From an uncultured Chlorobiaceae bacterium (GTDB lineage Bacteria > Bacteroidota > Chlorobiia > Chlorobiales > Chlorobiaceae), in assembly GCA_903940125.1 (NCBI GenBank), contig CAJAJL010000082.1, positions 1 to 64,000 of the forward strand: 64,000 bases of DNA, read 5' to 3'. The position numbers and the translations under genes were made by a program. A model generated the notes under the pieces. That model saw only the letters and a list, made by a program, of their open reading frames with translations, had not been told where the DNA came from and searched no databases. Positions 16,745-64,000 of the stretch are shown here, piece by piece (the first letter of the stretch is position 1; every line of letters begins with the position of its first letter).

Positions 16745-16801
16745 CTGTTTGTTTCTTTTTATAGAATTTGTTATTTAGCACACCATAATTGTTCTTTTGT
16801 T

Positions 16802-17016
16802 GTAGCTGGTGCCGGCTTAAAAGCCGGAGAATAGGGAATTACGTGAAAATCGTAAACTGTACCCGCAACTGTACAACGGTAACCGCAAAGCTGAAGCATG
16901 GCCACATGCTCCTGTTTTTGCTGGTTGTTTCAGGTCACTGCAATGTTTTCCGCCAGGGAAAACTGCGGGAAGGCCCGGAGCATATGTAAACCGTTATAGT
17001 CAGGAGACCTGCCAGT
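16802..17016 (+). promoter_or_regulatory. Cobalamin (AdoCbl) riboswitch
   Basis: Order and sequence of the B12 aptamer core are clear: GGTGCCGGCTTAAAAGCCGG, then GGGAA...GTGAAAATC, CCCGCAACTGT, an ATGC hairpin, GGTCACTG, and the near-perfect B12 box AGTCAGGAGACCTGCC at 16998-17013. It sits about 190 bp before btuB with nothing between, so it should turn down the whole cobamide operon when cobalamin is plentiful. I see no obvious terminator stem with T-run before btuB, so control of translation is as likely as termination. Confidence 0.93.
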
Positions 17017-17204
17017 TATTTTTGCATTACAAGATCGGACTACGGGATATAGTCGGGGCAAAGTTGTACTTCTTTTGCATTGTTTTCCGATTGATTTTTT
17101 TGCATCAATAATCGCCGGGCAATGTTACATGCCGTTACACACCGCCTTTTGCTAGCCCCTGTCAGTTGATGTTTTTCTAAAACTGAAAACAGGTAAAATC
17201 AAAA

Positions 17205-55990: not shown

Positions 55991-57136
55991 ATGGCACGTC
56001 GGTTTGTGATTGACCGGGGGCGGATGCTGGCGCATCAGCGGGCGTTTTGGGAGTTGCCGAATTTTGTGAAGCTGCTGGTTGGGGGGTATGGGTGCGGGAA
56101 GACGCATATCGGGGCGTTGCGGTCGATTTGGAGTTCATCGTTCAATGCGCCGATTCCGGCGCTCTATGTGTCGCCGACCTATAAGCAGGCGAAGAAGACG
56201 GTGGTTATCTCGATCAAGGAGATTTTGAGCCGGGCGGGGGTGCGGTACCGGTATAACAAGACGGATCATGAGTTTTTTATTCCGGGGTGGAACGGGACGA
56301 TCTGGATTGCAAGCGGTGATGAGCCGGAGTCGTTGAAGGGGCCGAACCTGGCGACGGCGGGGATTGATGAGCCGTTTTTGATGAAGGAGGAGATTTTGCA
56401 GGTGGTGTTGTCGCGGCTGCGGCATCCGGAGGCGAGGTTGCGGGAGCTGTTTTTGACGGGGACGCCGGAGCAGTTGAATTGGGGGTATGAGCTGGCTCAG
56501 AATGTGGATGGGCGGTATGATTTGGGGACGGTGATCGGGCGGACGGCGGATAATGTGCATTTGCCGGGGCAGTTTGTGGCAATGCTGGAGCGGGCGTTTG
56601 ACGAGAACCAGCGGGCAGCCTATATGGAGGGGCGGTTTGTGAATCTGGTGGCGGGGCGGGTGTACCGCCATTTTGAGCGGTCGATGGTGGCGGAGCGGGC
56701 GGTGCCGCAGGGAACGGCGGTGATGGCGGGGATTGATTTTAATGTGGATTATCTGACGGCGGAGCTGTTTTTTGTTGCGGGTGAGGGGGTGCATTTTTTT
56801 GATGAGATCCGTTTGTCGGATGCGACGACGTTTGAGCTGGCGGAGCGGTTGCATGAACGGTTCCCCGGTATCAGGGTTTTTCCTGATCCGTCGGGGCGGG
56901 ATCGGCGGACTTCTTCGCTGGGCTCTGATTTTACGATTTTGCGGGATAAGGGGTTTACGGTAGAGGCTCGGGCGGCTCATCCGCCGGTGCGGTGGCGGAA
57001 TGGTGAGATTGATAAGGTGACGAATGCGGCGCTGACTCATGCGTCGGATGCGGCAGGGTATGCGGTGGAGAAGTTGTTTCCGGTGCGGTTGCCGGAGCGG
57101 GTTTATGGGAGGGAGCCGGGGCATTGGAGGGCTTGA
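55991..57136 (+). CDS. Phage terminase large subunit, with apparent internal deletion
   Basis: A 381-aa TerL with Walker A GGYGCGKTHIGA (K37), coupling region IDEPFL, and nuclease-domain motifs AGIDFNVDY and FPDPSG with THASDAAGY near the end. Between AAHPPVR and GEIDK the usual segment with (D/E)RVNAVN and a Cys-containing helix seems to be missing (about 35-40 aa), so the protein is probably inactive. DNA here is extremely G-rich on this strand. A 25-codon frame overlapping the helicase end (55909-55986) just upstream is likely chance. Confidence 0.8.
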   Translation: MARRFVIDRGRMLAHQRAFWELPNFVKLLVGGYGCGKTHIGALRSIWSSSFNAPIPALYVSPTYKQAKKTVVISIKEILSRAGVRYRYNKTDHEFFIPGWNGTIWIASGDEPESLKGPNLATAGIDEPFLMKEEILQVVLSRLRHPEARLRELFLTGTPEQLNWGYELAQNVDGRYDLGTVIGRTADNVHLPGQFVAMLERAFDENQRAAYMEGRFVNLVAGRVYRHFERSMVAERAVPQGTAVMAGIDFNVDYLTAELFFVAGEGVHFFDEIRLSDATTFELAERLHERFPGIRVFPDPSGRDRRTSSLGSDFTILRDKGFTVEARAAHPPVRWRNGEIDKVTNAALTHASDAAGYAVEKLFPVRLPERVYGREPGHWRA

Positions 57137-57162
57137 AGAGGGCTTTTTTGAGGGTTGGAAGA

Positions 57163-57198
57163 ATGGGAGTTATGGGACTGATAGGACTTATGGGAGGG
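57163..57198 (+). repeat. 9-bp tandem repeat, four units
   Basis: Four units in a row: ATGGGAGTT, ATGGGACTG, ATAGGACTT, ATGGGAGGG. It lies between the terminase and portal genes. Same strand G-richness as the neighbours; a short minisatellite that may vary in copy number. Confidence 0.7.
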
Positions 57199-57211
57199 AA
57201 AACTGGAGGAG

Positions 57212-58630
57212 ATGGCGATGAATGATTCGGTGAAGAGCAAGAGAGCGGAGCTGGAGGGGGTGCATCGGGTGTATCGGGAGAATTGTGGGGAGTGGGAGTT
57301 TTTTTGGACGGCTTATCTGGGGGGGCGTGAGTGGGAGGAGGCTGGGTTGTTGTATCGGTATGTGCATGAGTTGGGGCCGGAGTTTGCGGAGCGGTTGCGG
57401 CAGACGCCGATGGAGAATCATTGTAAGTCGGTGGTGCATACGTATAGCGGGTTTATCTGGCGAGTGCCTCCGAAGCGGAGTTTTGGGGCTTTGGAGGGAA
57501 ATCGGGCGGCGGCGGCGTTGAACGGGAATGCGGATAAGGAGGGTGGCTCGCTGAATGAGGTTATGAAGGAGGTGCAGATTTGGGCGTCGGTGTTTGGGTG
57601 TGTTTGGGTTGTGATGGATAAGCCTGCGGTTCGGGGGGCGACGAAGGGTGATGAGATCAGCAGGGATATTCGGCCTTATTTGAAGGTCTATTTTCCGGTG
57701 CATGTGCTGGATTGGCGGTGTGAGGAGTCGGGGTCGGGCTGTTATGAGCTGACTTATTTGAAGGTGCGGGAGCGGGTTGATGGGGGGAATGGCTCGGATA
57801 ACTCTGGCAGCTCGGGTGGCTCGGGCTGGGTGTACCGGGTGTGGACACGGGAGCGGGTTGAGGTTTGGCGGGTGGATGGCAGGGATGATGAGGCTGTGCT
57901 GGTTTCGGAGGGTGTGAATGAAGTTGGTGTTGTGCCAGCAGTGGTGCATTACAATACGAAGCCGTTGGAGCGTGGAGTTGCGGTGAGTGATTTACAGGTT
58001 GTGGCGCGGATGCAGCGGTCGATGTATAATAGATATGTCGGAGCTTGCCCAGATGGTGCGGGGGTCGAACCATAAGACGCTGGTGAAGAATCTGGGGGGG
58101 ATGATGCTTCGACTGGCGCGGGTGGGGTGATTGTGATGCATGAGGATACAGTGCCGGAGAAGAAGCCGTATTTACTGCAGGCGGATGCGGAGGCGCTCTT
58201 GGGGTTATTGCAGGCGATTGAGATGAAGGTGGAGATGATTAACCGGATGGCGCATTTGACACCGGTGCGGACGTATCGGTCGGCGGTGGCATCGGGGGTG
58301 GCGATTGAGACGGAGTTTCAGATTTTGAATACGCTGCTGGCGGAGAAGGCGGCGCAGCTTGCGATGACGGAGAACCAGTTGTTCAGGATTTTTTGCCGGT
58401 GGGAGGGGGTGGATTATGATGCGGCGAATGTGGTGGTGACCTATCCGCAGCGGTTTGAGTTGCGTGACCGGCGGGCTGATCTGGATTTTCTGGTGCGGGC
58501 GAAGGAGGTGACGGCGAAGATTGGGTCGCCGACGTTGCAGCGGGAGATTGACCGGCAGTTGGCGCGGGTGGTGCTGGAGCGGGATGATGTGCTGGAGGTA
58601 GTTGAGGGGGAATTGGGTGGTGGGGGTTAG
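57212..58630 (+). pseudogene. Phage portal-type protein (DUF4055-like), broken by frameshifts
   Basis: Segment 1 (57212-about 58035) reads MAMNDSVKSKRAELEGVHRV... with PMENHCKSVVHTYSGFIWR and portal-like beta regions. It should continue in another frame as MSELAQMVRGSNHKTLVKN (58036-58095), then after the G7 run near 58095 in a third frame as DDASTGAGGVIVMHEDTVPE and on to the C-terminus (LQREIDRQLARVVLERDD). At least two indels, one at a G homopolymer, so no full product. ATG at 57218 is better spaced from GGAGG than the first one. Confidence 0.75.
58521..58607 (+). repeat. Portal 3'-end direct repeat, copy A
   Basis: The 87 bp from TTGGGTCGCC to GTTGAGG match 63299-63385 with about 8 differences, in the same orientation. 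The core (58541-58607) has only 4 differences in 67 bp. Confidence 0.85.
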
Positions 58631-58818: not shown

Positions 58819-59247
58819 CTAAGAAATAGACGAACCAGATTCATCGGTTATGGCGTTGCCAATTCCGAGCCTCTCTGATTCATCTTTTTTTCGTACAGAT
58901 TTTGATGGGACAAGTTTCTTTACCTCTTTGTATGTCACGGTTGCCTCGCGCATTAACATACGAAGCAGGTACATCAAAAGGATTACGACATCTATAACTA
59001 GTATAGCGTGCCCACTGAACGTCAGCATCTGAATAATAAATATCGGTACATCCCAATCTTCGATCCAGACAACGACCAAATGCAAGCCTAAAGCGCAAAG
59101 CCCAATAAACAAAAATCGCACAACAACTTTAATAGCCTCGAAAATGTGGTGCCCCGTTTCAGTGGACTTGAGCATCGAATAAATTCCAGATGACCGCGTA
59201 AAAATACGGTATAAGCAGCCTGATTTACCCGCATCGTGCTCAGCCAT
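58819..59247 (-). CDS. Small membrane protein, two TM
   Basis: A 142-aa protein with two hydrophobic helices (about 38-62 and 70-95), a basic mid part and an acidic tail. Not a recognised family. The upstream gene's stop overlaps its start by 8 bp, so the two are coupled. It may be a membrane effector, but nothing proves it. Confidence 0.55.
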   Translation of the reverse strand: MAEHDAGKSGCLYRIFTRSSGIYSMLKSTETGHHIFEAIKVVVRFLFIGLCALGLHLVVVWIEDWDVPIFIIQMLTFSGHAILVIDVVILLMYLLRMLMREATVTYKEVKKLVPSKSVRKKDESERLGIGNAITDESGSSIS

Positions 59248-59530
59248 TATGCTGTGGCATGTGTTTTTTGCTGTAAATCGTAGATAGCTTATTGCAGAAA
59301 ATAGGGCGGGCTTGTAAAATAACTTTTGTTATGTAGACAAAAATATAGAGTGAGTCAATGATGTATATCCCTGTTACCAGATGCGATACAATTAAGGCTA
59401 GAAAGTGATTTTGCTTTACAATGTCAAGTTGCTGTGATACGAAATTAATTGCATAAGCGGTTATTGCAATTATAAACCACATAAAAACGGCGTTAATTAC
59501 CCGGATTAAAAACCGATAACCGTATGACAT
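59240..59530 (-). CDS. Small membrane protein, two TM
   Basis: From ATG at 59530 a 96-aa protein (MSYGYRFLIRVINAV) with two hydrophobic helices (about 9-30 and 40-65). A longer frame from 59578 is possible. It overlaps the next membrane-protein gene by 8 bp. No family recognised. The DNA is more A+T-rich than the prophage part to the left. Confidence 0.5.
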   Translation of the reverse strand: MSYGYRFLIRVINAVFMWFIIAITAYAINFVSQQLDIVKQNHFLALIVSHLVTGIYIIDSLYIFVYITKVILQARPIFCNKLSTIYSKKHMPQHNG

Positions 59531-59876
59531 ATTTGTCTTTATTAAGTTAAAATAACGAGCACGCTTTGTTAAGCACACTACTGAATACGCTGATTTAACT
59601 GGTAGCGAGGAACGAATATTGATCGAAATTTAACACAACCACAAAAAAAAACAAAAAAAATCACACAAAACACGTAAAAATTACGACGACTTTTGCAAAA
59701 AAAAGTTACCTTTGATAGAAAACCAAAGCTACTCTGTCAACCGAGGAAGATCCCAACCCTTTGATCAAGCGGTTATACAATGTAAAAGGAATCAAAGCGG
59801 ATTGTAAAATTTTTTGTCTACATGGCAGCCATGGCAAACTAAGTTAGCTCCATCCAGTGTTTATCAGCTTTTTCAG

Positions 59877-62019: not shown

Positions 62020-62162
62020 ATTTAACGCTTGGACTAAGCGACGGTGCAGCTCAACACCCGAAAGGGGTACGAACGCATTGCTCATGTCTTTTGTGTCCTC
62101 TCGCGGTTGCCGCTAACGTTCGAAATGTGATGCACTTTGTCAGCTCGACTGAGGGATTAGGC
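62020..62162 (-). other. Candidate integron attC-like recombination site
   Basis: Read on the minus strand it starts at GCCTAAT, overlapping the stop of the unknown gene, then 5 bp and AGTCGAGC; it ends GCTTAGTC, CAAGC, GTTAAAT. The order box-5 bp-box at both ends, the GTTRRRY end and the ability of the arms to pair partly (GTGCA/TGCAC inside) match attC layout. The right end looks like the well-known aadA-type end. The first box has one mismatch to RYYYAAC. Confidence 0.45.
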
Positions 62163-62792
62163 TTTGGTTGCGTCACCGACGAACTGGCGATCAGTTGGCT
62201 CATAGTTTGGCAAGTTCTTTCGATAGTTATGAATTAGTTCTCGGACTCGATCTACGGCTAAAAGGTAGTCTTGAGCCGCATCGACCGTTGGAGTGACTTT
62301 CATGTGGGCAACCTTGTTCCTGAGTTCGCGCAGTTCTATAACCAACCTTATGGTTTCTCCAGGAATCAGATTCGATGCCATTATTGATTCGTAGACCTTC
62401 GTTGTACTGGTAAGTGGGTCTTTAAAAAAACCCATCTGGTGTCCCAGGCGGAAGAGTTCGCCATCTACCTTAGCCCATCCCTCAAGTATCATTCCCGTAG
62501 GATCGCTTCTGGCGCGAATGAGCCTCGCGACTATCTTCCCCGAGGACTCAAGACACTTGCCATTTGATTCCGTGCTTGACTTCGATTCGCCTTGCGCGGT
62601 TGCCTCAGCAGCGCTCGCCAATATCTGCTTCGCTGCCATTTCAAAATCAGCTTCCACTGGGCCGGCCTTGAATCGTTTGATTGCTGGTATCAAATCCAGT
62701 AGTTTTCTCCGGAAGACAAGCCCGAACGACAGTGCAACAACTGGCCAAGCCATCGAGTCAATTAGCTTACTTACGAAGGTTAGCCAATCCAT
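62157..62792 (-). CDS. Membrane-anchored hypothetical protein, cassette type
   Basis: A 211-aa protein with a TM helix at about 13-30 (MAWPVVALSFGLVFRRKLL), a basic patch and the motif KAGPVEADFEMA, followed by a helical soluble domain with ELRNKVAHM that resembles HEPN/DUF4145-like helices. Proteins of this layout are frequent in mobile cassettes. Function unknown. The stop codon falls in the attC-like site. Confidence 0.6.
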   Translation of the reverse strand: MDWLTFVSKLIDSMAWPVVALSFGLVFRRKLLDLIPAIKRFKAGPVEADFEMAAKQILASAAEATAQGESKSSTESNGKCLESSGKIVARLIRARSDPTGMILEGWAKVDGELFRLGHQMGFFKDPLTSTTKVYESIMASNLIPGETIRLVIELRELRNKVAHMKVTPTVDAAQDYLLAVDRVRELIHNYRKNLPNYEPTDRQFVGDATKA

Positions 62793-62940
62793 TTGTCTCC
62801 CAATAGCGTTTTAAATTTATGTGAAATCACCATGAAGCCTGCGGAAGTTGTGCAAGGTATAACATTGCTTAGACTGATCCGCCTAATTCTGAAAAAGCAG
62901 ACAGCTCCTTTCTGTGCAAGAACGCAGACGCCTAATGATT

Positions 62941-63063
62941 TCAGCTCTGAGTCATCCTATAACAAGTCGGGCCGGTAGCTTCCGTTTGCATACTTATCAA
63001 GATATTGCTGAAACGGGAGAATAAGAAAGGATCAGTAAAAGAATTACCGGTTTTTGTGCTCAT
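62941..63063 (-). CDS. Truncated 40-aa ORF following a DUF6371 fragment
   Basis: ATG overlaps the upstream stop as ATGA and the frame reads MSTKTGNSFTDPFLFSRFSN before ending. The coupling suggests the start of a true downstream gene of the same element that has been cut short. Confidence 0.35.
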   Translation of the reverse strand: MSTKTGNSFTDPFLFSRFSNILISMQTEATGPTCYRMTQS

Positions 63064-63288
63064 AATGCCGGATTGTGTACGTCGATGAGGTAGTCGGCGA
63101 GGTCGAGGCCTTGGGTTTGGTCGGCTGGGGTAGCTCGTTTTTCGAGGATGGTGAATACGGTGACGTTGGGGAGCCCTGCGGCTATGGTTTGCCATTTTTT
63201 GCAGGCTCCGAGGTTGGGGTAGAGTTTTACGTGGCGGTGGTGGAGTGGTTTGAGTTTTTCCGGGTTGAGATTCCCCTTCCCTGCTGTG
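63060..63288 (-). pseudogene. DUF6371-like (primase/toprim-associated) C-terminal fragment
   Basis: An open frame without start encodes LATAGKGNLNPEKLKPLHHR, then VKLYPNLGACKKWQ, VTVFTILEKRATPADQ and GLDLADYLID. This is the C-terminal sequence pattern of DUF6371 proteins carried by Bacteroidetes/Chlorobi mobile elements. The fragment is joined abruptly to the portal 3' repeat. Family call is by memory of the motif. Confidence 0.5.
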
Positions 63289-63298
63289 GCAAGCCGTA

Positions 63299-63495
63299 TT
63301 GGATCGACGATGTTGGAGCGGGAGATTGATCGGCAGTTGGCGCGGGTGGTGCTGGAGCGGGATGATCTGTTGGAGGTGGTTGAGGATGAACGGGGGGGGT
63401 TAAGTGCCCTTTTTTATGCTTTGGGTTTGTTTGTGCTGGGCGAAGAAAATCGAAGTAGCGGCGGGAAAGATGATTTAACCTGCAACAACGGTTGA
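63299..63495 (+). pseudogene. Second copy of the portal gene 3' end (direct repeat, copy B)
   Basis: Encodes MLEREIDRQLARVVLERDDL, the same C-terminus as the portal gene at 58.5 kb; the nucleotide match is about 91% over 87 bp (63299-63385). The frame then runs on to an unrelated end. It has no start of its own and is a remnant. Confidence 0.75.
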
Positions 63496-63708
63496 GGCTA
63501 TATGCCGTAAGGGAAATCGGAGATGCATAAGCATCACACGATACAAAACTTGCTGCGAGAGATGTACTTTAAATCCCTCATGGCGCATGAGTTGTTGTTA
63601 GGTGCTGGCGTTTTTTAGCTTTCGTTTTTATTATAATTTAGTTTTTAGTACTTATATTATTGTTGTTTTTCAATTGTTGTTTTTCAAACTTTATCTAAAA
63701 GATGATAA
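63386..63708 (+). other. Gap with possible hairpin ends
   Basis: Apart from the tail of the portal fragment frame (to 63495) no gene is seen. ATTTAACCTGCAACAAC at 63473 and GTTGTTGTTAGGT at 63591 can pair over the AACAAC part and have RYYYAAC/GTTRRRY type ends, but the spacing is not attC-like. Confidence 0.3.
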
Positions 63709-64000
63709 TTATTTTTTTATACTACGAATTAGATTTATACCGTAATTAACCAAATTTGAAAGATATTTAGAAGTTAAACGTCTTTCTAAATCCGGAATAT
63801 TTGGCAATGCAATAAATACATCATGTAAATCATTAATGCTATTAAACTCAGTATAAACATTATAACCCGCATTTTTCAGATCATTAACCAATACACTTAG
63901 ATTTGAAATTTCACCTTGCAATGTTAAATTAATTAAAATAAAATTATCATTTTTAATTGTTTCAGGGGTATAGTTCTTGACTTCTTCAATAATTTCATCT
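63709..64000 (-). CDS. Hypothetical protein, C-terminal part (5' end outside window)
   Basis: The frame is open to the right edge (…DEIIEEVKNYTPETI…) and ends in YGINLIRSIKK. About 97 residues are visible, A+T-rich, helical, no TM. No family recognised. Internal TTG at 63921 is unlikely to be the start because the reading continues upstream. Confidence 0.6.
   Translation of the reverse strand, partial: DEIIEEVKNYTPETIKNDNFILINLTLQGEISNLSVLVNDLKNAGYNVYTEFNSINDLHDVFIALPNIPDLERRLTSKYLSNLVNYGINLIRSIKK

Follow-up and report, generated by a model that had tools for sequence, protein, structure and literature searches.

The window analysed here, 64,000 nucleotides from the start of a contig (C82) of an uncultured Chlorobiaceae bacterium, carries near its far end an array of putative defence genes that sits inside a prophage remnant, between the portal and primase genes (Table 1). 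On one side of the array lie the terminase (55991-57136) and portal (57212-58630) genes on the plus strand; on the other side, facing the portal gene, is the 3' end of a primase-like gene, and it is this 3' end that carries the attI site at the head of the array. The primase-like gene is complete further along the contig (C82:67471-68376, minus strand); it has no PHROG match and was named from its sequence and from the neighbouring gene for a DnaB-like helicase. The copy within the window belongs to a partial duplication (62860-63398), so that two tandem attI-led arrays are present, with crossover points at 62863 and C82:67273. The primase fragment seemed to be cut off at a conserved point (window 63295), which proved to be an artefact of the query end, and other primase genes of 55-62% identity (L065-L074) were set aside because they have no attI. 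The portal protein is 38-40% identical to those of Pelagibacter phages, small tailed phages such as HTVC111P and its kin; at a sister locus in the same genus (L082) the portal gene is intact and is accompanied by genes for major head, scaffold and tail-fibre proteins. Elsewhere in the window there is a cobalamin riboswitch (16790-17030; Rfam RF00174, 84 bits).

Table 1. Positions of the array and of its prophage flanks in the 64,000-nucleotide window
Feature	Position	Strand	Remarks
Terminase large subunit and portal genes (flank of the array)	55991..58630	+	portal gene split over two frames
Two small ORFs, 112 and 142 aa, end of cargo 1	58819..59578	-	no family match
GmrSD (DUF262) restriction-type gene, 714 aa	59877..62021	-	PF03235 + PF07510; PADLOC HEC-06; next cargo
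attC-type site (degenerate)	62020..62162	-	top window score, weak covariance hit, poor fold
First gene cassette (837 bp)	62026..62862	-	runs from the attI to the attC G^TT junction
211-aa gene	62157..62792	-	probable membrane segment at the N-terminus; weak HEPN_Swt1 match, below threshold
Duplicated 3' end of the primase-like gene with attI	62860..63295	-	89.7% identity over 437 bp
attI-type site 1	62863..62915	-	crossover G 62863; core motif 62868-62885; same motif behind intI genes
Duplicated 3' end of the portal gene	63298..63398	+	87% identity over 101 bp
Part of PIN_8 gene, second array	63709..63999	-	the attI of this array has its crossover beyond the window, at C82:67273

What genes does the array hold? 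The first cargo consists of the 211-aa gene, the GmrSD gene, which carries both the GmrSD_N and the GmrSD_C domain, and the two small ORFs; the second consists of a GmrSD_N gene with a PADLOC match to NsnA and a PIN_8 gene, and occupies 63709-63999 of the window and the contig beyond it, up to C82:67093. In the 211-aa protein the membrane segment was judged by eye, and the below-threshold match to HEPN_Swt1 contains an RNKVAH stretch. Its distant homologues on plasmids adjoin a gene for a DEAD/DEAH helicase or for a TrlF ATPase. Among the 61 genomes searched, the gene found no homologue other than itself, and it is thus not traceable to another array. The cargo genes may well have an antiphage role.

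The identification of the site at 62863-62915 as attI follows from its position next to intI genes. The stretch 62855-62915 recurs throughout the genus, its minus strand reading TTAGGCGGATCAGTCTAAGCAATG^TTATACC. In nine of nine intact same-genus integrons examined, intI is oriented toward the motif TTAGGCRGATCARTCTAAWYAWTG^TT and its match ends 146-154 bp before it; for 11 C-terminal intI relics the distance is 147-156 bp, in the same orientation. The 18-base core, with up to two mismatches, yields 131 matches in 31 of the 37 genomes of the genus, compared with two for a reversed-pattern control, and the named matches elsewhere are nearly all from Chlorobiaceae, Chlorobium ferrooxidans among them. 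The alignment of these copies is one-sided: conserved up to G^TT, with unrelated DNA past that point, which sets the boundary exactly. Scores for attC of at least 28 (see below) occur on the cargo side of 13 attI motifs and on the other side of two. Many of the 131 dispersed copies (L128-L187) lack a recognisable intI nearby, and some keep a few dozen C-terminal intI codons. The motif resembles the end of attI1, which we take as a lead rather than a test. A lineage-specific attI signature of this kind finds intI-less integron loci that attC-based searches would miss.

The first-pass annotation had described an integron-like cassette on the minus strand, in which a gap of about 140 bp behind the 211-aa gene has attC-type boxes at both ends, and all of its motifs are located where it placed them. 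GCCTAAT (minus strand, 62162-62156) overlaps the stop codon of the 211-aa ORF (62792-62157), and the last box, at 62020, overlaps the ATG of the GmrSD/DUF262 ORF (62021-59877), the order from 62162 to 62020 being GCCTAAT-CCCTC-AGTCGAGC ... GCTTAGT-CCAAGC-GTTAAAT. The R'', L'', L' and R' boxes, the spacers of 5-6 nucleotides and the extra base in L'' are all present, and there is one departure from the attC plan, a T for C at the end of R''. A further box, ATTAGGC, had been noted 89 bp before the gene start; it is indeed there (62881-62887, GCCTAAT when read on the plus strand), but rather than being a cassette end it belongs to attI. As this box lies within attI and the crossover G is 62863, the first cassette spans 62862-62026.

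How well does the site behind the 211-aa gene compare with genuine attC sites? All window positions on both strands were scored with weight matrices for the 5' and 3' halves together with the pairing of the L and R arms, the training set comprising 19 attC sites, all from other loci (15 from same-genus integrons and four from integrons on plasmid records). The top-scoring position was 62162..62020 on the minus strand, with 33.7 against 16.8 for the next unrelated one; 33.7 is reached in three of 2457 simulated 64-kb windows (first-order Markov; p ~0.001 per 64 kb), and its boxes are therefore above chance. In 721,548 bases of fetched loci, the training loci included, scores of 28 or more fall nearly all within loci that bear intI or attI. 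The annotation had proposed a covariance search and a folding test, and here the outcome is mixed. With a home-made covariance model trained on these 19 sites, rather than attc_4.cm, the sole match in the window at E<=10 begins at the same R'' box, but it is weak (16.2 bits, E 0.38) and pairs R'' with a nearer R' box, at 62111, not with the one at 62020; over the whole genome the model gave nothing at E<=1, the window site being lost at that scale. An Rfam search returned no match to an attC family. The L arms can pair, with five Watson-Crick pairs, but the site folds poorly, with a probability of ~4e-6 for the canonical L-arm stem as opposed to 0.09-0.9 for most intact sites with 6-7 L pairs, and the fold of the whole gap is unremarkable (z -0.67 and -0.72). 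We read the site as a real but degenerate, decayed attC. At the portal end of the first cargo, behind the two small ORFs, attC scoring found no site, and the second cargo contains no attC that is supported by the model. An attC-like pair at the end of this second cargo (63603..63473, minus strand) looked canonical at first, but with L arms unpaired in the canonical register and a score below the cut it is listed as a candidate only.

To which class does such an array belong? As the annotation had stated for the window, there is no full intI, and this holds for the genome as well, where fragments alone were found. A relic of the intI C-terminus with its own attI lies on a separate contig (L025, G000:C51, 4429-4871), and a 288-aa ORF occupies the cassette position behind it; chromosomal integrons and intI relics are both common in the genus. 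With no full-length IntI in the genome, the array is not a complete integron, which has intI in cis. Nor is it a standard CALIN, the class that had been suggested: the cassette layout, the attC-type site and the lack of intI in cis agree with that proposal, but the array is led by an attI and has one recognisable attC. The default rule of IntegronFinder 2 asks for at least two attC sites (PMC9024848), compared with the one supported site of the first cargo.

The same junction of attI and primase is found with different cargo in at least six other genomes of the genus (G033, G024 with two loci, G010, G012 with two loci, G028 and G009; loci L075, L077, L080, L082, L083, L087, L088 and L089). Diverged or partial forms exist in G020 (L079, L091) and, by homology of the flanks, in G018, G014 and on another contig of G033. 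Among the cargo are Mrr restriction, TIR, Band-7 and unknown proteins, and in several genomes the ORFs between the portal and primase ends differ, as in a hotspot. A gap that is conserved in strains without any cassette rearrangement, which according to the annotation would speak against a cassette, is thus not what we see, since the cargo at this site varies between genomes. Two of the related loci have attC sites that score above that of the window. The site of L082 (8850-8776, minus strand) reaches 36.9, and that of L091 (1769-1644, minus strand) is well formed (score 35.9, seven of seven L pairs, folding probability 0.13) and lies six bases from the portal end; L091 retains no recognisable attI. 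L077 and L082 share attI and an Mrr first cassette, at 93% identity over 1331 bp, after which L082 continues with an attC and a second gene; L077 breaks off within the attC, and the pair is therefore no example of clean cassette exchange. In the chromosomal integron arrays of the relatives there is no close match to the Mrr cassette, to the second DUF262 gene or to the L091 gene, and no cargo gene was found to occur both in a phage array and in a chromosomal integron array.

We consider it likely that the locus is an intI-less integron platform borne by a phage and now probably immobile. The prophage would carry an integrase-less attI at the 3' end of its primase-like gene, into whose G^TT cassettes would have been inserted by an IntI acting in trans, or by one that has since been lost; the first cassette would be the 211-aa gene ending in its attC, with the GmrSD-type gene as the cargo that follows. 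We infer the insertion by IntI, its action in trans and the mode in which the genes would be expressed. As the attC is degenerate and the genome's only intI is a relic, the array is probably frozen. A broader scenario, which we offer tentatively and deem somewhat more apt to fail than to hold, is that, in a family of prophages from Chlorobium and its close relatives, an integrase-less attI is maintained at a constant position as a landing place for defence cassettes, on which the IntI of the host acts in trans. If so, the phage samples the cassette pool of its host without carrying an integrase.

Could the prophage instead once have possessed a whole integron, with intI, attI and cassettes, and have lost intI after loading in cis? 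The abundance of intI relics in the genus would fit such a loss, as would one locus (L128, G036:C10, ~1000-1900) where portal fragments, among them a C-terminus, occur together with a C-terminal intI relic and two attI motifs in opposite orientation. However, the primase-linked and the intI loci have only ~62 bp around attI in common, and in the primase-linked loci the stretch from primase to attI showed no intI tail, so that we regard this history as rather unlikely. Conserved phage flanks with variable cargo would also be seen at an ordinary portal-primase hotspot driven by homologous or illegitimate recombination, where the attI- and attC-like motifs would be uninvolved leftovers of a former integron insertion, and the partial primase/portal duplication in the window, as well as deletions into the flanks of several copies, point to change without site specificity. 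Yet in many loci the divergence of the cargo coincides with the attI crossover point, and three phage-linked loci have attC sites in cargo orientation, which makes a plain hotspot improbable. That the attC-like site is a chance resemblance beside a normal two-gene defence operon, as its low covariance score and poor fold might suggest, is very improbable for the top-ranking position of the window, on the right strand, on a stop codon and downstream of an attI.

The platform we favour, an attI-led array filled by an IntI in trans or since lost, has its closest counterpart in Shewanella. Phages are known to bear integrons and CALINs, one of the latter, in a cryptic Shewanella prophage, having an attI of its own (PMC9892861), and as in that case we see an attI-led array that lacks an intI of its own and has phage genes on its flanks in a defective prophage. 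The Shewanella prophage also holds a complete integron, whereas no intact intI is near the Chlorobium-group array; moreover, the attI-at-primase site recurs in the prophage remnants of several genomes with differing cargo. The order of integron-prophage association and prophage decay has been left open (PMC9892861), and a junction common to the remnants of several genomes argues for association before decay. Viral contigs (IMG/VR) scanned with the attI pattern, the primase and the portal gave no match, and since the phage copies seen are all partial or broken, transfer by a live phage is conjectural. Still, our characterization suggests a possible route for phages to carry interchangeable defence genes between hosts.

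The virulent phages TJE1, P12002L and PH101 likewise have cassettes without intI in their genomes (PMC9892861), but their CALINs are described as clusters of attC sites, five of six tested ones having recombined in vivo, while here an attI is present and the attC of the window looks degenerate. The same-genus integrons resemble those of Treponema in that intI is transcribed toward attI and the cassettes (PMC3607928), an arrangement from which the prophage arrays differ by their lack of intI. The second gene of the array matches GmrSD restriction endonucleases in having both domains (PF03235 and PF07510; PADLOC HEC-06), but unlike the known ones it is the cargo of a prophage array, and its activity is predicted. 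Relative to the open-access literature, the new element is that the same intI-less attI recurs in several genomes at a single place in the phage, with cargo that differs from one to another.
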